A stretch of DNA of 60,000 bases from positions 10,862,175-10,922,174 of the forward strand of contig NC_087078.1 of the NCBI RefSeq assembly GCF_026151205.1, in the 5' to 3' direction. Within the stretch, counting starts at the first letter, position 1. Each line of letters opens with the position of its first letter. This document shows, piece after piece, positions 18,401 through 38,417 of the stretch. The notes beneath the pieces were generated by a model. That model did no database searches. It saw only the letters and a list, made by a program, of their open reading frames with translations, and was not told the origin of the DNA. A program made the position numbers and the translations under genes. The DNA is from Bolinopsis microptera. Its lineage: Eukaryota; Ctenophora; Tentaculata; Lobata; Bolinopsidae.

Positions 18401-20037
18401 TCTACTCGAACTCCCTAGTGACTGTTTTAGTGCTTCATGAATATCCTCAGACTTCCTATCAGTCCTACAAGTTCTGCCATGTATTATTGTACAGAGCATA
18501 TTCTTAAAGTTTGTACCTGTATCCCTTTCTCCTTTCTTCGACATCTTGTCCAGTGAGAGGTATCTGCTTGCCTCCCGTCTCGACCAGTAGAAATGATCCC
18601 AGCATACAAAGGACCGAGATAAAAGCTAGACCGCCAAGAGGCACTGCTTTGTGAGTGATGGGTGCCAAATTGTTGAATATAAACGGACCTATGAAGGAGC
18701 CAAGTCTAGAAATGCCACAACAACTGCTCAACACAATACCCCTATGTGTTGTTGGTGCTATTTCTCCTGTCCAAAGAAACAAACCTGAGTAGGCTCCGTT
18801 CACAAACATGACCCCGATTAAACTCATGAGGCTTTGCAGTGTCCAGCCACCTCCAAATGCAACGTTTAGTATCGCTATAAGATAACTAAGAGTGGCCCCT
18901 AGAAACATGGCTATCATGGTCCTTCTCCTTCCCAACAAGCCTATTAAAGAGACAGTCATAAAATAAGACACTATTCTTCCAACACCAGCCATAATGTACC
19001 CAGAGTATCTATCTGGTAGTATTTTTCCCCAACTAAAGCTAAAGCCAGTATAAAACATAGCAGTGGATGGCCAAAGGGTCACGAGGATAATCGTCTCAAG
19101 TCGAAGACTTGGGTACCTAATAAATTCGATCAGTTGCTGTCTGGCATCATGGTTTCTATCTTTAGTGTTTCTGACGTCCGTTATTTGGATGTTTTCTAGA
19201 TCCAGGTCCATGTTGTTTAATTTCGCCAAACCCTTAAAGGCTTTTTTAGCTGCCTCCACGTCATTTTTTATCAAAAAGAATCTGGGCGATTGGAGGTTGC
19301 TAAAAACAGGGGTTTGCTAAAAACATGTTGTTCCAGCTATACATGAAGTAGCCGATTCCTACTGCAATGGGGTAACCAAATGAACTCAAACACCCTGCCC
19401 AACAATTCATGATGTTCCTATGTTTTGATGGAAGAAGTTCGGCAGTGAGAAGGTACATGCCATTGGACGTTAAAATGTTAGCAAGACCAATGAAATACCT
19501 AATTGCTAGGAGTAAGGTGTAATAATGACAAAATTTCCCCATTAAAAGTGAAGAAATCCCGATGACCATGCCAATCATTGCTGTTTTCTTTCCCCCAATT
19601 TTATCCAACAAGTAACCACCTAGAATTAATCCTGACAATCCTCCAGCATACATAATAGAAGTTAACAAGGTTTTTTGTGCCTTTCGGGATCCGACATCAC
19701 AATACAAATCAAACTCTGCAGAAAATGAGGTATGTTCAAGATTCCATTCTATGTCAGAAGATCCAACGGTCAGTTCTTTTTTGCCATCTACTTCTTCGGT
19801 GATTTCGCAAGGAAATTTTTGCAGTAATGATGGATTGGCTCTTGTCAAATTAAAGCACTTTTCAGATTTGCATTTCCAAGTGTCGTCGGGAGTTGGGTCA
19901 ATACCTGGATCGAAATAGGAATTAGTAATTTGCTAAAATAAATACAGATTTTTGATCCTTTTCATTAAAAGTGGTGCATATAGGTATACGCAACAAACTT
20001 TAAATTTCTTCCTGGCCGTATGTACTGACTAATGTTA

Positions 20038-21458
20038 CACTGGTGTGCCCACCTACGAGTGAAATTGAAACGTAGCGCGCCTGAAACGTCGCGCGCCTGA
20101 AACGTCGCGCGCCTGAAAGCATGACAATGTCAGCCGCGCCGAAAGCTTTCATAAGGTTTCAGTAATCGCGTCTGCGGCAAATTAGAAAATTTTAAAAATT
20201 TGCCAGTATTTGTCACAATTTGGCGGGACTGGAATATGATGCATTGGTTCGGTTAAAAAACCACCAGATATAATGATAACAAGATTAACGGTGACTGAAA
20301 TATGGCGAAAACTTGTTTAGCCCACAGCTATTGAAAATGTCGAGTTTACGAAGCTTGATGACTTAATGATAACACAATTCTTTTAGGCAGATAAAGATAT
20401 TAAATCAAATACGTGAAAACATAGCACAGTATGATAAATAAATGAACATTATTCTTAGTTTATTCCTTTTGTGTGAATAAGATCACCGTAGCAGACAGCA
20501 GTTCACGCAACATTGGCCGTGTGGACTGCTTGTCACTTGCGGAGGACATTTAAAAAACACGTTCTAGAAAAGTACACGTGTTAGTCAAAACAATACATGC
20601 ACGTATTACAAAAATAATTACAAGTGTTAAATTACCAATTCTTAAAAATACACGTGTTACAAATACAAATACACGTGTAACAAAATACTGAGCACATATC
20701 AGGCCATATATTTGCTTAAATTTGAAGTGAGTTAAGTTTTAGAACCCTTTAAAAGCAACTCTAAAACTCAAATTCTTACCATTCTGAAAGGATTGGATGC
20801 TAAACGATGAGTATCGTTGATCAGGAGCTCTATTTATCAGGTTTTATAAAAACGCCAATAGAAAAATGCGAAGATTTTTTATAGGGTCTCCCAGGAGATT
20901 CTATGTACTTCCAAAAGTATACATCCATTTTTTTTCCAGGTGTATTCGAGGAAATGTCTAAGCTTGTTATGTATGCAGTTTCATTGACCTAATACAAATG
21001 ATGGAATTTAAGTGAATTTAATCTGGCGGGTGGTGTTTCTTTTATGCAGATAAAGAGCTGAGTTGTGGTCTAAGATGGGAAGCCATAACTTATCTCTGGA
21101 TCTCAATCGGGTTGACATAATTAAAATAATAATGCAATCTTGTCCTTGTCCTCTCCCCAGAATCCACAAGATGGTTAGGAGAATCGTCGAGGGACAAGCT
21201 GCGTCCGAAGAGCTCCGAAGGAGGCTTTTCAATCAGTTCCAGCCTGAAATGAACAGTTTTCACAGACTCTGCATAATATACAATTAATAATAAAGCTGGA
21301 CCTGTTCTTATGATAAAATTAATTAAAAATAAACCATGTTCCCCACTTGGAAACGATGTCACAGACAACACAGCCACACAATTTAACGGTAAAAATTTTT
21401 CATTAAATAACTGACCCAACAAATTCGAGTAATGAGGAGGAGACTGAATCTTACTTAC
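20038..21458. repeat. Left terminal inverted repeat of the Harbinger element
   Basis: It is the inverse of 36545-38211. Outermost are three tandem 16-bp CpG-rich words (GAAACGTCGCGCGCCT, 20066-20117). Around 20570-20690 there is a cluster of TACACGTGTTA palindromes. The inner part carries the last exon shared by both element genes. The inner limit coincides with the donor GTAAGTAAG of the second gene. Confidence 0.9.
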
Positions 21459-24400
21459 TGTCTTCGCGTCTGCCGCGATCTTGAGTAGGATCTTTCCTGC
21501 GTGCTCCATGAGCTCCAGTTCGTCTGAAAGAGTTCTAAACATTAGTGGGGGGGGGGGTCAATTTCATTTTACCTCATTCGGGCAGCCAAAATTGGGATGA
21601 GGTAAAATGAGGTAAAGTGAGGTAAATGAATCTAGTTTTCTGAGCCTTTTTAGAGACAAATGTTTTTGCCGAAATTTACTTTATTTTACCTAATTCGGGC
21701 AGCCAAAAAAGGGAAAAATGAGGCAAAATGAGTCAAAATAGGGTTTACCCCCCCCCCCCCCCACATTAGTCGCCAAAGATTCAATGATCCTACATTTCTT
21801 GTTGTTGTACGGATAGTATTATATGGAGACAGGTTGCTTTGACCACACATCATATCAACAAAACGAATTCAGTTTTTTTCCTGTGCAAACTTATTGGATT
21901 GGAAAGCAGATTGTGGCAGATTGTTTTGTCTAGGTAGTTAAATCTCGCGGCTTTCGACCGGTGCAAGATTTTGTTGGGGAGACCCTAGTATTTGGACGTG
22001 ATCAAGGATTTTTTGTTGCAAAAAAAGAGTAGCAAATATTTTGGCTGGGCCGCGCCGGTGAGCCAATTTTTTCCGGGACTGTTTGATCGAATACCTATAA
22101 ATAAGTTACCTTGATATGCGACAGCCGACAGCTGGGCAATACTCTTGCCGAACACATCCCATCTATCCTCCTGGAGGATCTGTCTCGCCTGTTCGGCCAC
22201 GGCTCCTGATAAAAGACTGAGGTTCAAACAGACATGAAATTTGCTAAAAGTAAAGAGATGGATTTCTGAGATAACCTGCAGAAGTGGGTTAGTTTTAACT
22301 TTAGAACTGAGTTATATACACATACCAAGTGAAACGTGACTTATAGTGACCTAAAACTGTAGTGGTTTCGATTGCATATCTACTAACCCCCATTTCGACC
22401 GTGAATGGGTATTATATCGCTTAAAATAGACTTGATGTGCGTCAAACCAGCTACCTTTGTGTGGAAACGGCGATGCAATCTTCGACTTGAAGAAAATTAA
22501 TGTCCGAAAGTTTAAAAACGATATGTTGCACTTGAATTATTACCTATCACCGGATTGATCTTCAAAGCCTCCTCAACCATTGTCGCCGAAGTATCTCGGA
22601 GGCCCTTGGGGTGAAGATGTCGTCTCTCTGAAATGATAAAGGCGTGACTAAGTTATTTTCGACGTTGCACAGAGGGAAACCTTACGCCTTAAGGTTAGGG
22701 AGTTTTGTATTATGGCGAACGCGTCAGTTATCACACAAAAGTCTGATTAAATAATGCGGTTTCCAATTTTTACTCGTCACAAAGATCGTACAAAAAAATG
22801 GTCAAAGATGAAAGTATCAACTTTAATTGACCAAAGATGAATTCTTCCTGCGCCTGGTGAGTGGTGACCCATCCATATTACAGGCGATAATTCTAAATGA
22901 TGTTTAGAAATAGCTGTAACTCACTCAGGCGACTCTCGGACTCTTTCTGAAGTCTGGATATGTGGTCTTTTCGGACCTTGCCGGTTGGAGGCGCAGGCCC
23001 GGCTGCTGGTGTGGTGTCCGGTTGAACGGGGGGTTTTGCGACGGGGGCCCGGGGCTCGCTCCGGATGGCCAAAGCTATTCTCTGAACAGCACCTGGAAAC
23101 GTCACAGCGGATTAGTGTATGAAAACGAAGTTATTGCAGGATGTTCCTACTTGAAGAATCGTATTGTAAACCATAAAATTTCAAACTGGGAGTCCGCTCT
23201 GACGATGACACAAAACTGTTTCTACGATCAGTAGATAGTACAAAAAATGACTAAACAAATATTAGCATATTCAGCACAGGTAGCGCCTAGTGACCCATCC
23301 GGATGACTTTTAAAATAGCTATAACTCACTCTGTTCACTCTCGGGGGCTGTCAATGATCCAGGTTTCGTGACGGGAACCGGGGGCATCTTCTTTATCACT
23401 CTCTGAATAGCACCTGGGAATCGCCTACGATTAACCATAATGCAGCAATTCATTTTAAAGCCCAAGATAGGCTATACTGATACAGACGATCAGAGAAGGT
23501 AGGGCAAATTTATCGTCGGTCATGAGTTACAGCGAAATTCTCATACAGTGATATGAGTGAGCTTCACTATGGTATAATTATAATGTAACAATATGTATAC
23601 CTATGTCGCATCTCTCGAAAATATTAGAGACCCTGATCGGAGCCTCGTTAACAGTTGTTGCCAATTGTTCTCCTCCATCAACACTGTCTTCTCCGGGTTG
23701 CTAAAGGTCAATGGTAGGTAAAATTAATAGCTAATGTAATATCTAATACACCACGTGAAAGCGATTCATAATCAATACCTATCAGGACTCAGGGGGGAAT
23801 GATCAATTTATGTTCAATCAGTGAGAATATTAACTGTTAAGTTGAAGAACTATATTCAAACCTTGTCGTCTTTAAGCTGTAAAGAAGTTCCAAAAAACTT
23901 TCTTGATGTCTTCGTCTAACTTTGTCAGACTTCCACTCTGTCCATCACCACTCCTACCTCCCTGTTCAGGAAATGTTTATACTGTATGCCACAGCATGTT
24001 TTTGAAGCATAGGCAATTATAAACACTGCAAACATTCCACCCGACTGAACTAAGGTGATGTTGCAGTCGGTAATTATCAACTGGAACCTAGTAAAGTAAA
24101 AAACGGGAAACTTGTTTAAACTTGTACAAAGCAAAATGCCTGCTTATCATGTACAGCTCAATCTGATTACGGATGTTCTCATTGATCCCACTGCCAGGAC
24201 CTTATTTCGGAAGATCTGTGACATCAAGTATAATTACTTACCCTTTATCTTTTTGAGGGCGGTGATCAGCTCACAGATTGTAGATATTAGCAACTTCCTA
24301 TTTGCCGAAGTCTTGTCTTTTTTCTCATCAATGTGCACTGTAATTACAGCCGAATGAGTAAGTGGAGTAGATACCTGATCAGTGATCACATAGTACCTTA

Positions 24401-24481
24401 CCCATACGTCGACCATACATTGGTCGATAAAAGAGTGGTCGAAAGGAAGCATAGTCATCAATAAGATGCGGATTTTCTCTC
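21229..24481 (-). CDS. Second gene of the Harbinger element, product unknown (partial exon chain)
   Basis: Six consecutive phase-compatible exons: 23601-23700, 23330-23413, 22925-23092, 22544-22627, 22110-22205 and 21459-21523, then a last coding scrap in the TIR (21243-21229, GCT GGA ACT GAT TGA). All have good GT-AG borders and phase 1 joins until the last. Upstream, 24402-24481 (DDYASFRPLFYRPMYG) and 24242-24337 (VHIDEKKDKTSANRKLL) join in phase, but their link to 23700 is uncertain; 24899-24960 (KTFTPTNIDKLVKSLQ) is another exon-like piece. The product is mostly helical and charged, with a Pro-rich linker and successive exons starting GAIQRVI and SAVQRIA, perhaps duplicated. Harbinger elements usually carry a Myb/SANT-type partner, but that domain is not recognisable here. 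The start is not located. Confidence 0.6.
21547..21762. mobile_element. 216-bp MITE with G/C-homopolymer ends and 8-bp target duplication
   Basis: The element starts with a run of G and ends with a run of C. Inside, TTTTACCTCATTCGGGCAGCC and its kin lie in opposite orientations. It is flanked on both sides by ACATTAGT (21539-21546 and 21763-21770). The 8-bp duplication suits the hAT superfamily. It lies in the last-but-one intron of the element's second gene, next to the left TIR. Confidence 0.8.
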
Positions 24482-24981
24482 CTGGTATATTAATGACTTA
24501 AAACGTATCTACATATATCTACCACGTCTTAGAGGAGAATCATTAACTTTCAACGATCAAGTACGGTCTTTTAAATCGTCCTTTCGACCACTTTTTTAAA
24601 CAATCATCACATGGAATTAAACGGGTTTTCACCCCTCGACATTTCACCTCACGATCGTTGGCCCCCTGGTTTTAATCTCAAACGTTGTCTTACACCTAAA
24701 CCTGGCCTAGCTCCGAGCTATGATAGCTCGATCCCCGACTCTAACCCTTACCGTTACACAACATTAACCCAGACCACAACCCAAGCCCTTTAAACTACCG
24801 TTTTGCGCAACCACTTGTTCAAAGAATCCATGACAATGCTTCCAATTTATGAACAAATAAAAAGAAGTGTGGAGGAGAGGCTAACAGAGGATACTTACAA
24901 TCTAGATCGCACTGCAGGCTTTTTACCAACTTGTCAATGTTCGTAGGTGTGAACGTCTTTCTGAAAATATGAACAGTTGAA

Positions 24982-25370
24982 AATCTTCTAATCATTGTAG
25001 GCTATTATTCTTATTCTGCAAGGCTGATAGTGTAGTTTCAGCTCATCATATAATTTATGTATCAGTAAAAATTGTCTTGGCAGCTGCGCTATGGTTGTTA
25101 GCTCTCAAAACGTGATCGTTACACATCTACTAACATGTGGAGAAAGTCCAGCTTATCCTTCACTTCGGTTAGCAAAAAAAATATTAAGGTACTTCAACAT
25201 GTTCTCTTCTTGTCATCATTTTGAATCTTGGTAACCGACGTTTCCCTTTCGAACATGTTTCCTACAATAAGTAAGTCGAGATAACAGAATTATTGCAGTT
25301 AGCAGTAGATACATTATGCAGTACATTATACGAAAAGGAAAATCAACCAAAATATTGACCTACAATGCTA
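24982..25370. other. Harbinger interior, nothing coding seen
   Basis: AT-rich sequence upstream of the second gene's exon-like pieces. No exon with consistent borders was found, though the first exon and promoter of the second gene should lie in or beyond this region. Confidence 0.3.
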
Positions 25371-25439
25371 TATATCTACTTGATGAAGGTTTCAAAAAAA
25401 ACAATGCAAAACCCAGTATGACAACGCAGTGAAACACAC

Positions 25440-25945
25440 CATATTACTGTGGCTGTTAGGTAATAAAAGCTGTTCTGAAATAGAAAGAAACCTTTACAGA
25501 ACGGATTCCATTCCAGCATAAAATTATTAGTTTGGTGAAGAATTCCTTCGTGAAAATACAAAGTAAACCCGGCATATCAAAATCTGCACACAGAACCATA
25601 TTAGTTATTACTACTATAATAAACAATTTATTAACAATTTTTATATCAATATGATGAGAAGAGTAATACCAGCAACAAAATCAGGGTTTGATACTCTTGA
25701 TAATAAACTTTCCTAACAATCTCGATCAAATATGATGTAATTAAAATATCAAGGCTGAAGGCTGGGACGGAAGCAGTGGCTGTTAGGAAATAAAAGCTGT
25801 TTCTGAAATATAAAGAAACCTTTACACTTTTACAGAACGGATTCCATTCCAGCATAAAATTATTAGTTTGGTGAAGAATTCCTTCGTGAACATACAAAGT
25901 AAACCCGGCATATCAAAATCTGCACACAGAACCATATTAGACAGT
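25440..25945. repeat. Two direct copies of a ~160-bp segment
   Basis: Segments at about 25450-25605 and 25785-25940 share GTGGCTGTTAG, CAGAACGGATTCCATTCCAG, GGTGAAGAATTCCTTCGTGA and AACCCGGCATATC almost without change. The matching minus-strand frames (for example MYxHEGILHQTNNFMLEWN) occur in both only because of the duplication; there is no sign of a gene. Confidence 0.8.
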
Positions 25946-26284
25946 TCATCTAAATTTGTATGTACAATTGATACAATTGCTTTGTAGTGGTTATTGGCTG
26001 ATCAAATCTCCAGATAAAATTTAAATAAGATCATGATATTATTGCTGTACACAACAAACATGAGACCATTTTTTAAAAACCTCAGCTCTACCCTCATCAA
26101 CGGAATGAAATGCAGACCGGCAGTTGAACTCATCACAGGTCAAATACTGCATCTACGAACATATGTCTGTCAATGACGCTCATCTCAGGGATGTTGGTGT
26201 ATCATTAGTCCCTGAGGGATTATTATGTAAACTGCACCAAACGCTTCATTGAACCCAAACACCTGGATGACTTAGGAGTCACCT

Positions 26285-26470
26285 AACTCCTCCTGCTGGT
26301 GCATCATTAGTCCCTGAGGTGAGCGTCATTGACGCTCAGCTAAGGGACTCCGTCGGGTCTATGCAGCCTCCTTAGTGTATGAGAAACCACATGCAAGGGT
26401 TAAATGAGTGACCCTATTAAAGATCTAGAATCTTGTAAGGGTCCCCTTTAAAAGATAAAGAGAAAGAGAG
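26285..26470 (+). mobile_element. SINE copy with conserved GAGCGTC-GACGCTC core (5'-truncated)
   Basis: Carries the family core GTGCATCATTAGTCCCTGAG, GAGCGTCATTGACGCTCAGC and TCGGGTCTATGCAGCC, then the tail GGGTTAAATGAGTGACCCT. A short piece of the same core (TCATTAGTCCCTGAGG) lies just upstream at 26201. No clear tRNA-like head in this copy. Confidence 0.75.
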
Positions 26471-26709
26471 AACTCCTGGCTTCTGTACAGTCTATTTTCC
26501 ATCCCAGGGCTCAAGTCACCTCCACCCTCCTTTATTTTACCCCTTTCATCCCTTATCCCTAGGGCAACTGTCTCCTTTCATTGTCCACCCCTCCCCCATT
26601 TCCATTTCGATATCACCAGCCATATATATTCGAAATATTCATATTTACCCTTCTGTACTGACTGAAGGGGACCCTTACAAGATTCTAGATCTTTTAGCAG
26701 GGTCGCTTG

Positions 26710-27096
26710 CAGTGGCGTAACGTTGCCTGTTGGCGCCCCCAGCCGAAAAAAGCGCCCCCCCTATTGGCGCCCCCTCCCCTTTTGGTGCCCCTCCTTAAAA
26801 TTGAACAAGGCGATTTAAGAGGATACACCGGTAAAATCTCTAAAAAAGTGTGTGTATCTAGAGCAAAACGCGCAGTTTTGCTAGTACTTAAGTTAAGTTT
26901 TCAAAATTGTCCCACATTCAAACGACGATTTGGAAAACTCAAATCCTGCCCATACACCACCAAGCCTAAAATAAGTGTGTATTTATTTCAGCATATATGT
27001 GTTTTGTCAAAAAAGGAGTGTTTAAGCATGAAAATTACTGAACCAAATGTCCCCAGGCCAATCCATTTAGCCAATGTGCAGCAGCATCACATCTGA
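26710..27096 (+). mobile_element. hAT-like non-autonomous element, left end (related to 30034-30286)
   Basis: Begins CAGTGGCGTAACGTTGCCTG followed by GGCGCCCCC-rich sequence, as in the complete copy at 30034-30286. It shares AAATTGAACAAGGCGATT-like and TCCCACATTCAAACGACGAT words with it. It extends further, but no matching CGTTACGCCACTG right end was found, so the right limit is uncertain. Confidence 0.6.
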
Positions 27097-27099
27097 TAA

Positions 27100-29280
27100 A
27101 GTAAAAGTAAAGTAAAAAGTCGGTTGAGCTGAGGGCAAACCAGTTAATAACCCATCTTAAAATCTGCCCAAACAGTAGTCAGGAATGACTTGCTGGGGAA
27201 AACATTTTATAATTCTGCAAATACATGTGAAGAGAAGGACTCAGCATGTCATATTTTTTCTGGCGCTGGTAAAGTAATGTACAAAATTATGACATAACAT
27301 CATCACACATATCTCCAAAATGTCAAAAACTCTATATAATAGAAAAAATAATAATACTGGTGGTTACAAGACGAACAATTTTGTACATATATAAATGACC
27401 GGAAACCCTACTAAACATAGAAACACTAGTGCATGGTTTCAGGACATAACATTGTTGTGCCTGATATAGGAGAAACACATTTTTGTTGAGTGTAGAAAGT
27501 CAGGAAACAGCGATTAATTGATATATAATATCAAAAAACATATTATATATGTTCAAAACCATACGTGCTATTTTGTAGCCAAAGGAGCTAATTTCCTTAT
27601 GAGAACCGCATTCCAAGCTTGTGCAATTTCATTTAGCTACACACAATTTATAGTCTTACTTCAAAGCTGTAGCTGTTTGGCCGACGTCCGTCATCCAACC
27701 AAACATCATCCACCAATACATATGAAAGTAAGAAATTAGTCCAAATACATGCAAACGTCGCTCAAGGGGCATTGAACAACAAAGCACCACTTTTTATATT
27801 AGCAAATGGTGTTTTTTCACCATGAAGTAAAGTAATAAATCTGCTAAGTCAATTTTGAAGAAATTCGACAAATGTTGTCAAAGCGTTCGATTTTTATAGT
27901 TCGAGGTAAAACGTCTTTAAATGCGCGGCTCAATTTTTTTTCTTCCTTAATTTTGTTCAGTACCAGTTTTTGATGTAACAAATCTACATGAATTTTTGAA
28001 AGATTGAAATACATATTTAAACACATGTTTTTTGTTTTAAGTTTATGTATGTGGTGTAAACATTTTTTCCTTTATATTTTTCAATTTAAACAATTTTTAA
28101 TAATGCATTTTTTACATTTTGAACATTAGATATATTTTTAAAATCTTTTATAATCAAAATTCAATATTAGATTAAAGTTCATTTTGTAGCGCGATGCACT
28201 ACTGGGTCGCGCCGCGCATCAAATAATTCTTCTCGCAACCTTAGGTAGATCGGCAAACTGCACTTTTGTGCCTCACCAAGCGGCGAAGGTTTGACATCGA
28301 GATAAGAATCAAAGTTCATTTAAAGTTTTTAATTCAAGTTTTCAACCGAAGTTTTCAATTAAAGTTTTCAATTAAAGTTTCATTTAAATATAATAAACTT
28401 AACAGCCACGCTGAAAATACATAAAAGCGAAAATCAGAGGCGCGCCGCGCACATTCGCTCCATCATATATCCTAATTCAAAAATCGAGCGCTTACTCAAA
28501 ATTTCTCAGATTTGCACATTAGTGAGTTAGTAGCTTACTGAAGTTACTGCATGACGACAAACGATTCTACGGTGTCGTTTTCTTGATAAATGCAAATCAA
28601 ACAATATTTGCACAAATTTCAAGCATCGCTGCTCAATCTGCCATCTATTGTTGTTTCCTGAGGTTTTGATATATTTTTCATAATAGCATAAATAAAACTC
28701 AAGAAAACAACAATTTTTTCAAGAAAACAACAATTTTATTTAGTATCAGTTAAAGCAGACAAAAACATATTTTATAAATATAACTAGCGCAAACTTTAGA
28801 CCATATATCTTCTAAAGGGGACTTGGAGTAGCAAGAGAGTGACCAGAAAGTATATATACTTTTACCAAAAATACGTCGAAATGAATCCAGGGTGATACAG
28901 GATCTGAGAGTGCAGACCATAAAGTTTACGCACCCACCCTTGCCTCCTGAATTCTTGGTTAGATAGACAATTATGCAAAATTGGTCGTTTATACTCCAAG
29001 TCCCTTTGTTAATAGAAGTAGTATTATTTATGTCTGGAGTTAGCTTCATTCAATAATAAAAATATCAATATAATCAATATTAATATCAATATCAGACTAA
29101 ACTATCAAATAAATAAATTATCAAATATCAATTATTAATTCACTCTGATTAAAAGTTATAAATTAGGATATCTAATATTTAAGAATTTCAACTACAAGTG
29201 GTCGAAAACGCCCAAAGTCGATCTGAGATATTTTCAGCTAAAGACTCTGTTGGGTATGTGCACCCAACGGAATTTTGAAA
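27100..29280. other. AT-rich Harbinger interior without recognisable genes
   Basis: About 2.2 kb of low-complexity AT-rich sequence. Short imperfect tandem words (TTCAATTAAAGTTT at 28320-28390; ACAACAATTTT at 28710-28740) and two CpG-rich patches (GGGTCGCGCCGCGC near 28205; GGCGCGCCGCGC near 28439) were noted. The frames at 27518, 27844 and 28750 show no domain or splice support. Confidence 0.4.
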
Positions 29281-29295
29281 GATTAAATTGCAGGT

Positions 29296-29505
29296 CTTTG
29301 GTGGTGTAGGGGCGGGAGTTAGATTTCACGATCGAAAGGCTATTGGTTCGGTTCCCCGCTGGTGCATCATTAGTCCCTGAGGTGAGCGTCATTGACGCTC
29401 AGCTAAGGACTCTATCGGGTCTATGCAGCTTCCCGGTCTGATCAGCCGAATGGAAACCATGTGTGAGGGTTAAATGAGTGTAAAAGGGTCCCCTTCAGTA
29501 TACGA
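29296..29505 (+). mobile_element. tRNA-headed SINE copy
   Basis: An A-box-like TGGTGTAGGGGCGGG (about 29302) and B-box-like GGTTCGGTTCC (29345-29355) form a tRNA-related pol III promoter. The family core follows (CCTGAGGTGAGCGTCATTGA, GCTAAGGACTC, GGTCTATGCAG) with the tail GTGAGGGTTAAATGAGTG and AGGGTCCCCTT. Confidence 0.75.
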
Positions 29506-29687
29506 CGGAGTCCGTAGTTTCGTATCCCCCCAGGCTGCTGACATCATGTGTGAACGATCCCTTAGGGCAGGTTTTTAGGTGAAACATTGGTAAAAACACA
29601 CATGTTGCATCAGTTGTGGTGCTGCAGTGGCTAAAAAATTGGCCTGGGGATATTCGGTTCAGTCATTTTCATGCATTAACATTCCTT

Positions 29688-29900
29688 TGGTGTAGGGGCG
29701 GTATTCAGATTTCACTATCGAAAGATTAGTGGTTAGACTCCCCGCTGGTGCATGATTAGTCCCTGAGGTGAGCGACAGTGACACTCAGCTAAGGACTCTG
29801 TCGGGTCTATGCAGCCTCTCGGTCTGCTCAGCCGAATGTTTGGAAACCATATGCGAGGGTTAAATGAGTGACCCTGCCAAGGGTCCCCTTCAGTACAGAA
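29688..29900 (+). mobile_element. tRNA-headed SINE copy
   Basis: Same family as 29296-29505: TGGTGTAGGGGCGG head, decayed B box GGTTAGACTCC (29731-29741), core with GAGCGACAGTGACACTCAGC (palindrome broken by mutations), GGGTCTATGCAGCC, tail GGGTTAAATGAGTGACCCT and AGGGTCCCCTT. Confidence 0.75.
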
Positions 29901-30033
29901 GGGTAAATATGAATATTTTTGAATATTTCCTTGTAAATAATTTAGTAGTACAAATAAGTGAATTGTTGGGACTGAGTGGGCCCGAGATAACTTAAAGCAT
30001 CCAAGCGTTCATTGGGAGATTGTGGATTCAAGT

Positions 30034-30286
30034 CAGTGGCGTAACGTCGCCTGTTGGCGCCCCCCTGCCGAAAAGGTGCCCCCCTGTTGGCGCCCCCTCT
30101 CCTTTTGGTGCCCCTCCCTAAAATTGAACAAATTAGGCAATATAAGAGGATACGCCGGTAATTCAAAATTTTTTCAAAATTGTCCCACATTCAAACGACG
30201 ATTTGGCGCCCCCCCCCCCCCCCCCCCCCCATAAGACAGCGCCCCCCTGCACAGCAGGGTCAGCAGGGCCCTTCGTTACGCCACTG
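30034..30286. mobile_element. 253-bp hAT-like MITE with 8-bp target duplication
   Basis: Terminal inverted repeats CAGTGGCGTAACG and CGTTACGCCACTG. Flanks are ATTCAAGT (30026-30033) and GTTCAAGT (30287-30294), matching 7 of 8. The inside is rich in GGCGCCCCC words and a long C run at 30208-30230. A right end of the same family (GTTACGCCACTG, after GCGCCCCCTCTGATG repeats) lies at 41330-41433. Confidence 0.85.
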
Positions 30287-30306
30287 GTTCAAGTCCTGTT
30301 CTCAGC

Positions 30307-31881
30307 CCCAGGTCAATATCATTAAAAATATGTCGTATATTATTATATCTGGGTGAAATATGTCATGGTTTTTATCACCCGATGGGGCATTTTTGGGCCC
30401 CACAATGATCCAAATTGGCAGAGTCCGATCCAGGGGGACAAAGCCTGCTACAGGCGAGTCCTAGAAAAATTTATTAAAAAATTCTTAACTTTTTTGATAT
30501 AATTTTTCAAACACAAGGATATTTTTTATATGATATCCCCCGTCAGATATTTAGATCCACGTCAAATATGCGCTCATCTTATCAAATATGCGGGGACGTT
30601 TTTCATGTCAAGTTTTGCCTGTAAAATACAGGTAAAAATATGCGTGAACTTTCTCAGATATTTGTAAATCATGACATGATGTCAAGATTTCGGATGTCAT
30701 GATTTCGGATGTCATGAAAATATCAAAATATTTTTTTTAAAGGAATTCTGTGATCAACTATTTCTGAAATTAAATTAATTTGTAACAAAATTTAACAATA
30801 ATTTTTTTATGTCGTGGTTTTCCTTCGAAATATGTCGTATATTAATATGCGAAATATGTAATGATATTGACCTGGGTCATGAATACCCTCAAAATCCTCT
30901 CCTTTGTCTCGCCAATTACTCCACTGTGTACATGTGATGATAAAACTATATATTACGAGGATCTAAGTTAGGATTTAAATAGTTACGATAATACTAAGCA
31001 CTGTTCAATCGATTACCTTCCTGTTTGTAATGATAATGCTTGCAGTGTAATATCAAGCTGCACACTGTCCACACACTGTACGTCGTACAGTTATAATGTT
31101 GACCTGCTAAACTATAACTACCGTTAGTTTTACTTGCGTAATCGTTATTTCGTTAGTATTATCTTGATAACCTCTTTTGACTGTCTCTAGAGATCTCCAA
31201 TATATGGACCGTAGTATTCCAACTGCTGGGGAAACACAGATAATGTGTTATCCCAGACTGCTACAGTGCACTCTCCACACAACACAATAACAACTGCTAA
31301 GTTCTCTATCACCCAGGTCAATATCATTAAAAATATGTCGTATATTATTATATCTGGGTGAAATATGTCATGGTTTTTATCACCCGATGGGGCATTTTTG
31401 GGCCCCACAATGATCCAAATTGGCAGAGTCCGATCCAGGGGGACAAAGCCTGCTACAGGCGAGTCCTAGAAAAATTTATTAAAAAATTCTTAACTTTTTT
31501 GATATAATTTTTCAAACACAAGGATATTTTTTATATGATATCCCCCGTCAGATATTTAGATCCACGTCAAATATGCGCTCATCTTATCAAATATGCGGGG
31601 ACGTTTTTCATGTCAAGTTTTGCCTGTAAAATACAGGTAAAAATATGCGTGAACTTTCTCAGATATTTGTAAATCATGACATGATGTCAAGATTTCGGAT
31701 GTCATGATTTCGGATGTCATGAAAATATCAAAATATTTTTTTTAAAGGAATTCTGTGATCAACTATTTCTGAAATTAAATTAATTTGTAACAAAATTTAA
31801 CAATAATTTTTTTATGTCGTGGTTTTCCTTCGAAATATGTCGTATATTAATATGCGAAATATGTAATGATATTGACCTGGG
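30307..31881. mobile_element. Composite unit: two 570-bp MITEs flanking 435 bp, with a shared 8-bp target duplication
   Basis: MITE copies at 30307-30876 and 31312-31881 have the same orientation and length and no difference was seen on reading. Each has inverted ends CCCAGGTCAATATCATTA and TAATGATATTGACCTGGG. Only the outer borders show a direct repeat, TTCTCAGC, at 30299-30306 and 31882-31889. The inner borders (TCATGAAT and CTCTATCA) do not match each other or it. The 435-bp centre has no recognised function. Confidence 0.85.
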
Positions 31882-31889
31882 TTCTCAGC

Positions 31890-32248
31890 AACTAACTTTT
31901 CATGGAATGTACTACGCTTACTGCTGTTAATTCAGTGCAGCTGCAGGATTCTTACTTCGAAACGACCACCTACCTTATTTTGATATTCATATCTCAGTCA
32001 TAATGATTTAAAATTTAACTTGATGCTAGGCATCTTTTTACCTCAGTTTCAATTTATGTTGGAACAGCTTCGGACTACTAAAATGCTTTTTGTAGCCAGT
32101 ATGTTTAAAAGATTTTCATCATAATCTAATCTAATAATTATCATGTTCTATGTATTCACATCGAAAATTTTGACTTTAGGATGTTGATGACGAAAAGGAG
32201 ATTTTGACTTTAGGATGGTAATGACGAAAAGGAGATTTTGACGTTAGG
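31890..32248 (+). promoter_or_regulatory. Leader of the Harbinger transposase gene with triplicated start region
   Basis: A 34-bp unit (ATTTTGACTTTAGGATG plus ATGACGAAAAGGAG) occurs three times in tandem at 32167-32268. Each has an ATG in the same context. The first two (32181 and 32215) open eight-codon frames that end in TTT TGA; only the third (32249) reads on into the transposase. The two upstream copies would act as uORFs if transcribed. No TATA box could be assigned. Confidence 0.6.
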
Positions 32249-35200
32249 ATGGTGATGACGAAAAGGAGATGTGGGCTGCTGCTTGGGAAGCTGATTCATC
32301 TAGCTCGGTTAATATCAAGAAAAGCAGTTTACAGTACAATAAGTTATCGCTGTGCAAAAAGGCGAGTATTGTGATTTACAAACTTTTTATTTTGAATTGT
32401 CTGACTTTTCCATAATTTAAAGGGCCAAGGTTCGCTTGATCGTGTTTCCTTGTGACAATTTTTAAAAAAAGCTGTTGACATTCTATATTGTATTATAGAG
32501 CACCTGTAAAGTACTACTACCAAGGACGTAAGGAATTCGGAGCCTATAATACTCAGATCAACCGTCTCTTAAAATATGGGACAACAGAAATGTACAAGTA
32601 AGTAAATTCTGGCAATATATATTATATTCAATTCAATTTAATTCAATATTTTGTTTAAAGGGTTTAAATAACTAAATAATTAAATTAAGTCCAATTTTAC
32701 ACAGCAGACTTACACAATATTTAGGCAACATTACCGGTAACCTACATGATTAGCAACGCTCTCATGCTTAAGAAATGAGTTGTGTATTTGCGGATTAATT
32801 TACCATCTTACAATACGAAATGCCTAGTCGAAATGAGTTTATGCCACATCATGTTTTCATCGCTCAACCTAGTATGATTGGGGGTGTCCTGTCCATTTTC
32901 GAATCCATGAGCTATTGGAATATTAGTGGACATAGTTTTTGGAAAATTAGTGGCAAGGAGAAGACATGCCTTATTATATATATATCTATGATATTAGCGA
33001 GCCTTAATATTTACATAATTCTTGGAGATATCTAGAGAAATACAAATTGTGGAATAATGATTGTGCCACCACGTCATAGTTAGGGTAAAATATTATTCTT
33101 AAAAATTTTAAAATTAAGAAGATTGCTCTATGACTTAAAATTTAAAATTAAGCTAAAGATAACTAATTTTTAATAGTTGGTTACAGTTTATGACAGTACT
33201 GGCATGACCAATGTTATTGTGGCTGGTAAAAGGACCCAGGTCCCAGTTGCCTGTTACCGAACCCCTGGGGACTACAATGTGATAGGATCAGGCCAGAATA
33301 ACCAGATGTTTCTATGTAGAGCAATTTATTTCTTTCGGAGCTATGGTTACGTGGTATAGCTGGTGGTCATGTTTATCCTTGTGTGCTAATAATCCATCCA
33401 GATGCTTAGTGATGTGAGTAAATCATGCCCTTCTACGATATATAACGTTTAACTATAAATTTGTTTTTACCACAGAAACTGTGGCACTAAGGTCAAGAAT
33501 TAAAAATGTTTACTCTCATTGATCATAGTTAAAGCGTGTTTTTTCCCCAGCACTACTACACAACAAAAACCTGTCGGCCCACCAAGGAAACACGGTCGCA
33601 GAACAAAGAGCCCAATTGTGCTCCTCTATTCTGCGATCGTGTGTATTTACTATAAACTAGCTAAATGCAGTTAGTAAAATTTATACTATGTATAATGTAG
33701 TATAATGATATTATACAAGGATCAGTGATCTCATAACTTGATTTAATAGTAATATCCGCTAATTTCCTTGTCCATTTTTAAATCGATAAGCCAGAGATTT
33801 TGATCCATCGATAGATTTTAATGATGATGCCCGGCAGGAGTCAATTTGGTATGACGAGATCAGAGTATCATTCACTTTTCATGAAAGTTCGACCGCTTCT
33901 AGAACCAAAGAAGTTCAACCGGAAAAGTACGTCAATCTCAGCTAGAGAGCAGCTCATTTTAACCCTAAGGTTGGACAGGACAATATAGGGTAGAATCTTG
34001 GATGAATATTTATAAATGACGGAATTATCTCTGTCGTCAATCGTTATGAGAAATTTCTCAACTTTTCAGTTGTTTGAACTTTAAATTTCTGTAGAGAGAT
34101 GAAAAGTCGAATTATTTCTTATCTACATTCAATACTACATTATATATATATATATATATATATATAAGAGTTATAATGTAAATGTGGAATATCACTTTTT
34201 ACATCACTAATTGAAGTTAACACCACAGCTACCTGAAGTCTGGGTGTGCGCAAGGGTATCTGGCGAACCAGTTTGTACTATCCCGGTGCAGAGTGTGTAG
34301 GATAATAAAGAAGGTTGGTGCGCTTAGTTGCTTATTCTATAGATTCATTGAGCCACTGACACTTTGAGTTTACTTATCACCAGGTATACCTCAGGAACAG
34401 AAGTCTATTATATCAAGTAAAAATTGTATTTCAGGTGACAACGGCCATCTCTGTCTGCCTGGCTGAACACGCAGATTTTCGTCCACGGTCGACTGAATGT
34501 TGGAAAAAAATTGCTCAGAGATTCCATGAAAGATGGCAGCTGCCGCACTGCATTGGTAATGAAAAAGTCTGACTGAACGGTGGGGAGGCATCTTGGGATG
34601 GGGAGGGGGGAGGCGATCTATTGACGTTGATATATATATATATAATTATCTTTGATTGGACGCCGGGAGCTGAGGGTCTCGAGTTGGTGAATCATGGAAA
34701 TTGATGCTATAGCGTTTCCTTAAAGAAGAGAGGAATAGAGTGAGATCAAACGATATTTGTTGCAGTTTGAAGATCATTGCTCATATTATGCAATTCTACA
34801 GTAACTATGGGAAGTTTTCAATCTTGACTTCCCGAAACGACCATTTTTCAAACTTCAAATGCTCTCCTCGTACAGTTTTTATTGGATCATTCTGAAAGCA
34901 GGCAAAAACTATACGCCACAGGGTGGCATTTCACACACAGAAATCCGAAACTTAGCCTAGTTAAGGTTCGCCACAGTTTCAAAAATTCACGAATTAAATT
35001 TCGATGTTTTTGAGTAGCATAAATTTTAGGAGTATGATTTAAACATTCAGAGCCGACCAATTTTATTATCCTCGTCTGTCCTGAGACAGAAGAGGCATTT
35101 ACACATGTCATTTCAGGGGCAGTGGACGGCAAGCATTGCTTCATTACAAAATTTGGGAAAACTGGAAGTTACACGATTAATTATCACGGATGGCCGTCTG

Positions 35201-36924
35201 TTATTCTCCTCGCAGTGTGTGACGCTGATTATATGTAAGTGCTATTTTCACATGTCATCTTTAAAAAAATGGTTCAACTTAAATGCTAGTGTAGTGAAGA
35301 ACATTGTCACTTCTCCTCTTCAACCAAGATTATGTAGCCAGATTCCTACTAACTTATTGAAATGAGATATGTAATCTTAAAACAATATCATATGTACCGC
35401 TCATGAATATCGTTTTTTGCATGCTTTCAATAAAAATTGCTGCATTCTGCAAAAAACAGGAATGGGTAGATTGGAGTTAAAACTTGCGAGGATTGCGGGC
35501 GATCTATGAGAGATGTAACTTAAATGCTAACATCATTCTCTAACTTCTTTACTACAATTACTTATTCAGAATCCGTCATTTTAACGTTGGAAGCTTTGGC
35601 GGTCGATCAGACGGAGGAATCTGGTCAGAGGACAGACTGGGACGAGGACTGGCCTCCGGAGAATTCCTAGAACGGGGTTTTATACCTGCTGCTGAGATTC
35701 TGCCGAATGATGATCAGGTAAGAACTGATGATAATATGCGAACACTCGTGAATACCAAATGCTCGAGGCTTCATTAACTCAGTAAATACTTTACCCGGAA
35801 TCCCAGCCCTTGAACATGATTACCGTTTTAACAATGGAACAGGGTGTGTTCATAGAAAGATTTAATTTAACCCCGCTTTCGGACTTTGATGGGGGGCCTT
35901 GATTGGAGAGTGGTTCTGGGCGTTAAAAACAGCGCCATTGGTCTGCATCCTTTAGGACATAAAAATATGAGCTTATATGTTATCTAGGCTGTAAGATACT
36001 TAATTAATATAATGTTTACGTCTTCTTTTCAGGAGCGACTTGGTAGAGTCAATTACTACATTGTCGGTGACGATGCCTTTCCCCTTCATGCTCATTGTAT
36101 GAAGCCGTACAGGGGGAAGGTGTCAAAATCTCAGCGGATGACAAACTATAGGTTATCCAGGTACTGGAACGTCACGAATTAAATAAATAAATAAATTGTA
36201 GCCTCGACAATTCAGAAAACTACATCTAATTAGATTAGACAGTCATGATTGTTTTTGTATGAATTGATCAAGAATTACCGTTTGTGCTCTTTGAGCTGTT
36301 TTCCTGTATTTTCCTGTAAAGTGATCATCGCAAAACTGAAAACTTTTGTAGAACCTTATGTAGATTGAATTGTACACTGTTTCAGAGGCAGGATGGTCAT
36401 AGAGTGCGTCTTCGGACACCTATCAAGGAAATGGAAGATCCTGAGTCACCTGACCACAAATGAGGAGGTGACTAGGCTGATTCTGAAAAGCTGTGTGCAT
36501 CTGCACAATTTCTTGCGGATATCACGCTTGGACGACGCAGACGAGTAAGTAAGATTCAGTCTCCTCCTCATGACTCGAATTTGTTAAAACTGGGTCAGTT
36601 ATTTAGTGAAGAATGTTTACCGTTAAATTGTGGCTTTTGTCTGTGACATCGTTTCCAAGTGGGGAACATGGTTTATTTTTAATTAATTTTATCATAAGAA
36701 CAGGTCCAGCTAGTCCAGCTTTATTATTAATTGTATATGATGCAGAGTCTGTGAAAACTGTTCATTTCAGGCTGGAACTGATTGAAAACCCTCCTTCGGA
36801 GCTCTTCGGACGCAGCTTGTCCCTCGACGATTCTCCTAACCATCTTGTGGATTCTGGGGAGAGGACAAGGACAAGATTGCACTATTATTTTAATTATGTC
36901 AACCCGATTGAGATCCAGAGATAA
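32249..36924 (+). CDS. PIF/Harbinger transposase, ten exons, apparently intact
   Basis: DDE transposase that cuts and joins the element ends. Exons: 32249-32361, 32499-32597, 33838-33969, 34229-34313, 34435-34555, 35117-35234, 35570-35717, 36033-36160, 36386-36544 and 36771-36924; together 1257 nt, 418 codons plus TAA, with no stop or frame break. Family motifs in order: GRKEFGAYNTQINRL, TRSEYHSLFMKV, YLKSGCAQGYLANQF (helix-turn-helix-like region), WQLPHCIGAVDGKHC (first Asp), FGGRSDGGIW (second Asp), YYIVGDDAFPLHAHCMKPY, TNYRLSRGRMVIECVFGHL (Glu), KSCVHLHNFLR, and a C-terminal RTRLHYYFNYVNP. The first donor is best read as GC (AAAAAG then GCGAGT), since the nearby GT gives a stop. The final exon lies in the right TIR. 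Confidence 0.9.
32600..33835. other. Second transposase intron, no feature seen
   Basis: About 1.2 kb between transposase exons 2 and 3. A small hairpin-like pair (ACACGGTCGCAGAA and TTCTGCGATCGTGT, 33589-33641) is the only structure noted. The frames at 32820 and 33177 have no domain support. Confidence 0.4.
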
Positions 36925-38211
36925 GTTATGGCTTCCCATCTTAGACCACAACTCAGCTCTTTATCTGCATAAAAGAAACACCACCCGCCAGATTAAATTC
37001 ACTTAAATTCCATCATTTGTATTAGGTCAATGAAACTGCATACATAACAAGCTTAGACATTTCCTCGAATACACCTGGAAAAAAAATGGATGTATACTTT
37101 TGGAAGTACATAGAATCTCCTGGGAGACCCTATAAAAAATCTTCGCATTTTTCTATTGGCGTTTTTATAAAACCTGATAAATAGAGCTCCTGATCAACGA
37201 TACTCATCGTTTTAGCATCCAATCCTCTCAGAATGGTAAGAATTTGAATTTTAGAGTTGCTTTTAAAGGGTTCTAAAACTTAACTCACTTCAAATTTAAG
37301 CAAATATATGGCCTGATATGTGCTCAGTATTTTGTTACACGTGTAATTGTATTTGTAACACGTGTATTTTTAAAGATTGGTAATTTTACACTTGTAATTA
37401 TTTTTGTAATACGTGCATGTATTGTTTTGACTAACACGTGTACTTTTCTAGAACGTGTTTTTTAAATGTCCTCCGCAAGTGACAAGCAGTCCACACGGCC
37501 AATGTTGCGTGAACTGCTGTCTGCTACGGTGATCTTATTCACACAAAAGGAATAAACTAAGAATAATGTTCATTTATTTATCATACTGTGCTATGTTTTC
37601 ACGTATTTGATTTAATATCTTTATCTGCCTAAAAGAATTGTGTTATCATTTAGTCATCAAGCTTCGGTAACTTGAGCTTCGTTAACTCTAGTTTCGCTAA
37701 TGTCCCAAAAACCATGTCCGCTAATGTCCCAATAGCTCATGGATTCAAAAGGGGACAAGTACACTTGCGGACATGGCACTAAGACTGATGGTCAACATAA
37801 TTTTCATTCGATTATCATGCCGTGCTATGTTTTCATGTATTTGATTTAATATCTTTATCTGCCTAAAAGAATTGTGTTATCATTAAGTCATCAAGCTTCG
37901 TAAACTCTACATTTTCAATAGCTGTGGGCTAAACAAGTTTCGCCATATTTCAGTCACCGTTAATCTTGTTATCATTATATCTGGTGTTTTTTTAACCGAA
38001 CCAATGCATCATATTCCAGTCCCGCCAAATTGTGGCAAATACTGGCAAATTTTTAAAAATTTTCTAATTTGCCGCAGACGCGATTACTGAAACCTTATGA
38101 AAGCTTTCGGCGCGGCTGACATTGTCATGCTTTCAGGCGCGCGACGTTTCAGGCGCGCGACGTTTCAGGCGCGCTACGTTTCAATTTCACTCATAGGTGG
38201 GCACACCACTG
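36545..38211. repeat. Right terminal inverted repeat of the Harbinger element
   Basis: It is the inverse of 20038-21458. It is about 245 bp longer, mainly because a segment starting TCATACTGTGCTATGTTTTC at 37581 is repeated at 37814, with intervening sequence (CTAATGTCCCAA words) absent from the left arm. The remainder aligns closely, with scattered substitutions. Confidence 0.9.
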
Positions 38212-38417
38212 TAATTGTTATATTATAATCCGTGATCGGACTTGCAAGTCGGTTAAAGCTAGCAATTACCTGCGAATGCAGTTATATAAATATTTGAGGT
38301 CCCTCCCATCCATACCAACATCAGTGACATTATCAAAGCTGTGTACTTCCAACTTCGATTACGAGTTAGCTCTTTTAGCAAATCATCGCTGCTGACCGGT
38401 TCTTTAACTTCTGCCAT

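Follow-up and report, generated by a model that had tools for sequence, protein, structure and literature searches.

A PIF/Harbinger-type transposon in Bolinopsis microptera with the same intron and exon at the inner edges of both terminal inverted repeats

Results

The element and its arms

The window, by which is meant the whole 60,000-nucleotide stretch of Bolinopsis microptera DNA that was analysed, holds an 18,187-nt PIF/Harbinger-type element at positions 20027-38213. Its left terminal inverted repeat (TIR; 20027-21459, read on the minus strand) measures 1433 nt and its right TIR (36544-38213, plus strand) 1670 nt. This is much longer than usual. In aligned blocks the two arms are complementary at 93-100%. 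The outer ends of the element read CA[C/G]TGGTGTGCCCACC, with CACTGGTGTGCCCACC as the outer end of the left arm. About 234 nt of the right TIR (37603-37836) are missing from the eight main left arms of the family.

Two genes lie between and partly within these arms, a transposase gene on the right and a partner gene on the left, and according to the gene models both are read outward. The donor of the last transposase intron forms the inner edge of the right TIR, and the donor of the last partner-gene intron that of the left.

The transposon also contains two copies of a short element of roughly 570 nt (30307-30876 and 31312-31881), with inverted ends CCCAGGTCAATATCATT; these are 100% identical across the 300 nt compared. 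A repeat around CCTGAGGTGAGCGTCATTGACGCTCAGCTAAGG is dispersed at 26292-26345, 29355-29408 and 29741-29794, with copies that are 91-98% alike.

The transposase gene

On the plus strand, the transposase gene was modelled with seven exons ahead of the one in the TIR: 33847-33969, 34229-34313, 34435-34555, 35117-35234, 35570-35717, 36033-36160 and 36386-36544. Joined across all eight exons, the model is an open frame of 344 residues with a provisional start. Pfam finds DDE_Tnp_4 (PF13359) in the product, with an E value of 1.6e-16 and 60.7 bits against a cut-off of 24.8. Plant_tran is also above its cut-off; HTH_Tnp_4 reaches an E value of 4.1e-05 but stays under its own. A PDB search with the transposase as query gave no match.

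The partner gene

The partner gene, on the minus strand, has at least nine exons ahead of the TIR. They were modelled as exons a to e at 24960-24899, 24337-24243, 23961-23862, 23700-23601 and 23413-23330, and exons f to i at 23092-22925, 22627-22544, 22205-22110 and 21523-21459. The first exon or exons were not found in the exon modelling. Exons f and e have like starts (AVQRIA / AIQRVI), and on this likeness may be a duplicated exon.

In the window this gene is frameshifted in exon c, with a stop after 81 codons as read, and the donor of exon b has one additional G (exon end at 24242 instead of 24243). Of the eight copies that were modelled across the genome, leaving aside L010 (which ends beyond the exon g region) and the indel-laden L019, the window copy is the exception: the other seven are open to the end of the gene. 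In these seven, the exon phases are consistent over the nine exons and the TIR exon, and one of them has a 9-nt deletion that is in frame.

The partner protein matches no Pfam family at E values up to 5, and this includes any detectable Myb or MADF match. Given that, and given the frameshift in the window, the case for a real gene rests on the consistent exon phases in near-identical copies. Polymorphism amounts to two synonymous and three replacement codons in six copies (the window copy and C2b being left out), which is too little for a selection test.

A genome search for relatives returned, beyond the gene's own copies and fragments on C9, C11, C3 and C5, a best match at C2:3810620 with an E value of 0.149. 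This weak match was rejected as a relative; its open reading frame, presumably for a lyase-like protein, is not Myb-like in appearance. Calling the partner gene itself 'Myb-like' was likewise rejected, as the label would come from position alone. Isolated fragments of exons c and b, about 95% identical at the DNA level, are found at G000:C9:11405560 and C11:3111570, where no full copy was seen.

A different view would be that the partner gene no longer functions, or stops short of the TIR, and that its donor at the left border arose as a side effect of the inverted duplication and has lost its relevance. The frameshifted window copy, the lack of a Pfam match and the uninformative polymorphism all fit this, as does the C3 copy, in which the left end is not present in the stretch that was read. 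But seven of eight copies stay open through nine exons plus the TIR exon, with consistent phases and, in one, a deletion that keeps the frame, and two genes are described for PIF/Harbinger elements (PMC9710019). A dead or shortened partner gene is thus unlikely.

One intron and one exon at both inner edges

The likeness between the arms begins at A/GTAAGTAAG, after position 36544 on the right and after 21459 on the left (minus strand). The right border reads ...GACGCAGACGA/GTAAGTAAGATTCAG at 36544/36545 and the left border ...GACGCGAAGACA/GTAAGTAAGATTCAG at 21459/21458. From there on, a first-pass annotation had described the same donor GTAAGTAAG, intron, acceptor and exon in both arms, and this anatomy is confirmed.

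The last transposase intron (36545-36770, plus strand, 226 nt) lies entirely within the right TIR, and the last partner-gene intron (21244-21458, minus strand, 215 nt) entirely within the left. Both end in the identical acceptor TTCATTTCAG/GCTGGAACTG. The exon that follows, here called the TIR exon, is found at 36771-36924 on the right (plus strand) and at 21090-21243 on the left (minus strand). A possible 7-base similarity between the arms, GCAGACG, lies beyond a short gap on the upstream side of the donor; it is equalled in 162 of 5000 shuffles.

The transposase enters this exon in phase 2, as the first-pass annotation had it (..GAC GA/G CTG GAA CTG..), and gains a tail that comes to 51 residues if the split codon is included. 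With the seven upstream exons, the right-arm exon gives a single open frame, ..RLDDADE LELIENPP..TRTRLHYYFNYVNPIEIQR followed by a stop. Read directly, the unspliced frame ends immediately, with GAG TAA. The spliced frame is open in all eight modelled copies; a ninth copy, L018, is broken by indels.

The partner gene enters the left-arm exon in phase 0, also as first described, and its predicted end after exon i is ..AAG ACA/GCT GGA ACT GAT TGA, or ..ADAKT AGTD and a stop. The seven open partner copies mentioned above all run to this AGTD. In its other frame, the left-arm exon also encodes the transposase tail.

The proposal that a single TIR exon is coding tail to one gene and terminator plus 3' UTR to the other therefore holds for the transposase; for the partner gene, the terminator and 3' UTR are what the DNA predicts. 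The anatomy itself is real, and it is unusual. Its best reading is that both genes use the TIR exon, with a well supported transposase side and a predicted partner side.

Possible polyadenylation patterns are present in both arms. AATAAA is found at 37551-37556 in the right TIR (plus strand), 626 nt past the stop of the tail, with a counterpart that starts at 20464 in the left TIR (minus strand), and ATTAAA is found at 36992 in the right arm and 21022 in the left. All are patterns only.

Exon i (at 21523-21504, minus strand) and the TIR exon (at 36771-36790) both start with ELEL(M/I)E codons, and the differences between these are all at third positions. The similar stretch reads DELELME for exon i, or DELELIE in L010, compared to DELELIE for the TIR exon. 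This may be chance or an old duplication.

The transposase tail and its relatives

The tail was also said to include a typical Harbinger C-terminus. This is borne out: it resembles the C-termini of other Harbinger-type proteins in the same genome. In a distant alignment, the tail lines up with eight open reading frames from about five other families (L021, L022 and L047-L052). L021 and L022, which form one related family, have 42% and 40% identity over the tail stretch, and carry tail and catalytic end in one exon, with no intron between.

The other six, Harbinger-type frames L047-L052, also run intronless into a comparable end, an arginine and then YF or a variant. They count as about four families, because L047 and L048 are near-duplicates, as are L050 and L051. 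Across the relatives in this distant alignment, the motif R..L..YF or a variant is continuous with the catalytic end. From these comparisons, the tail is taken to be an ordinary transposase C-terminus; among the relatives read, the intron at the TIR border would be peculiar to the family of the window element.

Reading through the left intron

In the frame of exon i, the left intron is free of stops, which is equalled by 41 of 5000 dinucleotide shuffles. The partner gene could therefore read through it, for 71 intron codons and then the transposase C-terminal tail, adding 122 residues in frame. Open frames of 154-161 amino acids span the tail in this way in the eight main left arms.

Relative to L010, a partner-gene arm outside the main subfamily with the same exon i, this opening depends on a 4-nt insertion in the left arms that shifts the frame past a stop. 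L010 itself has a stop in the intron, and its open frame over the tail is just 104 amino acids. In addition, the right arm must splice out its intron at the identical donor and acceptor, and the eight open left arms are one recent lineage, so that they count as a single event. The open left intron may be chance in that lineage, and read-through as the regular end of the partner gene is improbable.

A variant of this idea is a splice switch, where splicing would give the four-residue partner end and intron retention the transposase C-terminal tail, with the two C-termini kept alike by gene conversion between the TIRs. If true, both transposon proteins would have the same C-terminus. This is improbable.

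Copies across the genome

The innermost 456 nt of the right arm, used as query against the genome, gave at least 20 matching arms. The 20 arms that were read are those of 18 other loci plus the two of the window. The first-pass annotation had suggested looking at whether family members keep the donor exactly at the TIR border, and GTAAGTAAG is kept there in 19 of the 20, nine on the transposase side and ten on the partner side. The remaining arm, L020 (C2:16539642), has lost the donor and matched the query from position 54 only.

Eight copies of the transposase have three variable codons in 1035 nt. Because of this near-identity, the copies count as one lineage and not as independent evidence.

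Three arms at 83-87% (L018, L019 and L020) were considered as diverged members. They were rejected as such since they have many one- and two-base indels, like decayed copies or unpolished assembly; they were used for donor presence only and kept out of the arm alignment. L024, the left side of the C3 copy, was also rejected as a diverged member: it matches at 91% from about 22494 inward only, its frames are broken, and its left TIR was not found in the stretch read.

It might also be that the donors sit at the border by coincidence, with the TIR ending there by chance and the donors being unrelated consensus sites. GTAAGT is the consensus donor. Common ancestry of the copies furthermore means that there is one border to explain, not nineteen. 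But this border is within one base of both donors, and the two arms have intron, acceptor and exon in common. Coincidence is very improbable.

Target sites and sister elements

Features of the PIF/Harbinger superfamily that are present include a DDE_Tnp_4-type transposase and terminal inverted repeats. The superfamily also has a second gene with a Myb/SANT/MADF domain; here a second gene is seen, open in seven of eight modelled copies, but with no Pfam family at E values up to 5. The 3-bp target duplication, typically TWA, matches at the outer flanks in three of eight arm pairs: C2a and C11 (TAA/TTA) and C2c (TCA/TGA). In the window, C2b and C6 the triplets are unmatched, with the same outward triplet at both ends, and C6 has a copy abutting one end. 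C1a and C1b are fused together, and the outer ends of the pair (TCA, TTA) are unmatched. At G000:C1:614514-656871 two element copies stand end to end with their termini joined (L017, L006). On C6, another TIR end abuts the element with a common TAA (L003).

When 534 nt from the outer part of the right TIR were compared with the genome, at least 58 matches came up, sister elements included. Two of these were fetched, E5 (C5:13718400-13736300) and E6 (C6:12425100-12442000), which match parts of the outer TIR at 73-97%. The target site of E6 matches as TGA; that of E5 is unmatched. Their inverted arms are about 1.9 kb (99%) and 5.8 kb (90%) respectively, and E6 contains an open frame of 229 amino acids that we take to resemble a piece of a reverse transcriptase.

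Neither E5 nor E6 has a significant match to the inner 877 nt of the TIR that were tested (best E value 0.088), and against both proteins they give weak or low-complexity matches only. If they are moved by the same transposase, which their ends would suggest, the exon is not necessary in cis. The TIR exon thus looks like gene content and not like a transposition signal.

Divergence between the arms

The arms were compared in an alignment of 17: eight right arms, eight left arms and L010. In the intron (226 nt) there are seven fixed substitutions between right and left, two of these beside an insertion, and three indels. The coding TIR exon (154 nt) has one fixed difference between the two sets of eight arms. 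The 676 nt of non-coding TIR that follow have two strictly fixed differences, and three further ones to which a single arm is an exception. Clearly greater divergence between the arms is confined to the intron.

It had been suggested that the shared exon would tie conservation of the TIR to both genes. This is unsupported, because the exon does not stand out from the adjoining non-coding TIR and is no more conserved than it. The relatives E5 and E6, which retain the outer TIR only, also speak against such a tie.

In the intron, L010 is of the right type at all three indels and, 36611 excepted, at every fixed substitution; it carries left alleles at several outer TIR sites. Given these right-type alleles, the left arms would once have been right-like in the intron.

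Some arms carry alleles of the other side. Four sites of right arm C1b, 37346, 37374, 37375 and 37387, carry left alleles. L010 has the right allele at the last three, so the left alleles of C1b look derived there, and the run suggests gene conversion with a left arm as the source. Right arms C3 (37908-38035) and C2b (37937-38035) have left-like sites that are common to L010 and may be ancestral. The stretch that is absent from right arm C2a sits between direct repeats, and may have been lost independently. Exon site 36789 is variable in both arms, and the arms agree in three of the seven pairs that are complete in the alignment. Mixing during assembly may also be a source of left alleles in right arms. 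Signs of conversion between arms are few, and two of the four have other readings.

Discussion

The element is probably a two-gene PIF/Harbinger-type transposon in which the TIRs have grown inward until they include, for each of the two genes, the last intron and exon as well as the 3' UTR. The 3' end of the transposase gene would have been copied, in inverted orientation, to the other end of the element, where it would have replaced the partner gene's own 3' end. The partner gene could have remained functional after this, since that requires only an acceptor and an early stop. Among the genome's own relatives, no older one was found that has the TIR in its state before this growth.

There are two ways in which the junction could have come to lie at the donors. 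Either the copying made use of microhomology between the donors, or any growth further inward would overwrite a gene's own coding exon and be lost. Later gene conversion between the arms would then help to preserve their likeness.

These TIRs are not just transposition signals: they contain coding sequence that is open to use by two genes, each in its own frame. Gene conversion between arms could change the ends of both genes together, and growth of the TIRs would be bounded by the donors. The family offers a concrete and testable case for how TIRs lengthen, and for where the lengthening stops.

The first-pass annotation knew of no described parallel. This stands for the shared 3' exon in TIRs, for which no description was found in the titles and abstract openings searched (Repbase and most subscription papers being outside that search). 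Listings of work on ctenophores had nothing on it either. It does not stand for inverted repeats in general, as repeats that give two genes their 5' ends are known from MuDR and herpes simplex.

Two-gene PIF/Harbinger elements, like for example zebrafish Harbinger3_DR, similarly have a DDE_Tnp_4 transposase and a second gene between TIRs. The TIRs of PIF are given as short, at about 15 bp (PMC9710019). Those of the present element measure 1.4-1.7 kb and include a last exon for each gene, and the second gene has no detectable Myb or MADF match.

Maize MuDR is alike in that long TIRs provide transcript ends to two genes. In MuDR, however, the TIRs contain promoters and sites of transcription start for two genes that converge (PMC3440606). 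The genes of the present element read outward instead, which means that its TIRs contain 3' ends, and what is shared is the 3' end, coding sequence included.

In herpes simplex, too, two genes, US1 and US12, run from unique DNA into an inverted repeat, each into a different copy of it, and they share a common spliced leader. What maps to the repeat there is only the us1 promoter and a short 5' UTR (PMC5476775). In the present element it is the 3' end that is shared, and it is coding in two frames.

Chloroplast genes of the ycf1 type cross an inverted-repeat junction, so that the end of the gene is duplicated in the other arm. Normally, this other-arm copy is a fragment and not the last exon of a second gene. 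In the Bolinopsis element, by contrast, the copy in the other arm appears to be just that, the last exon of a second gene.
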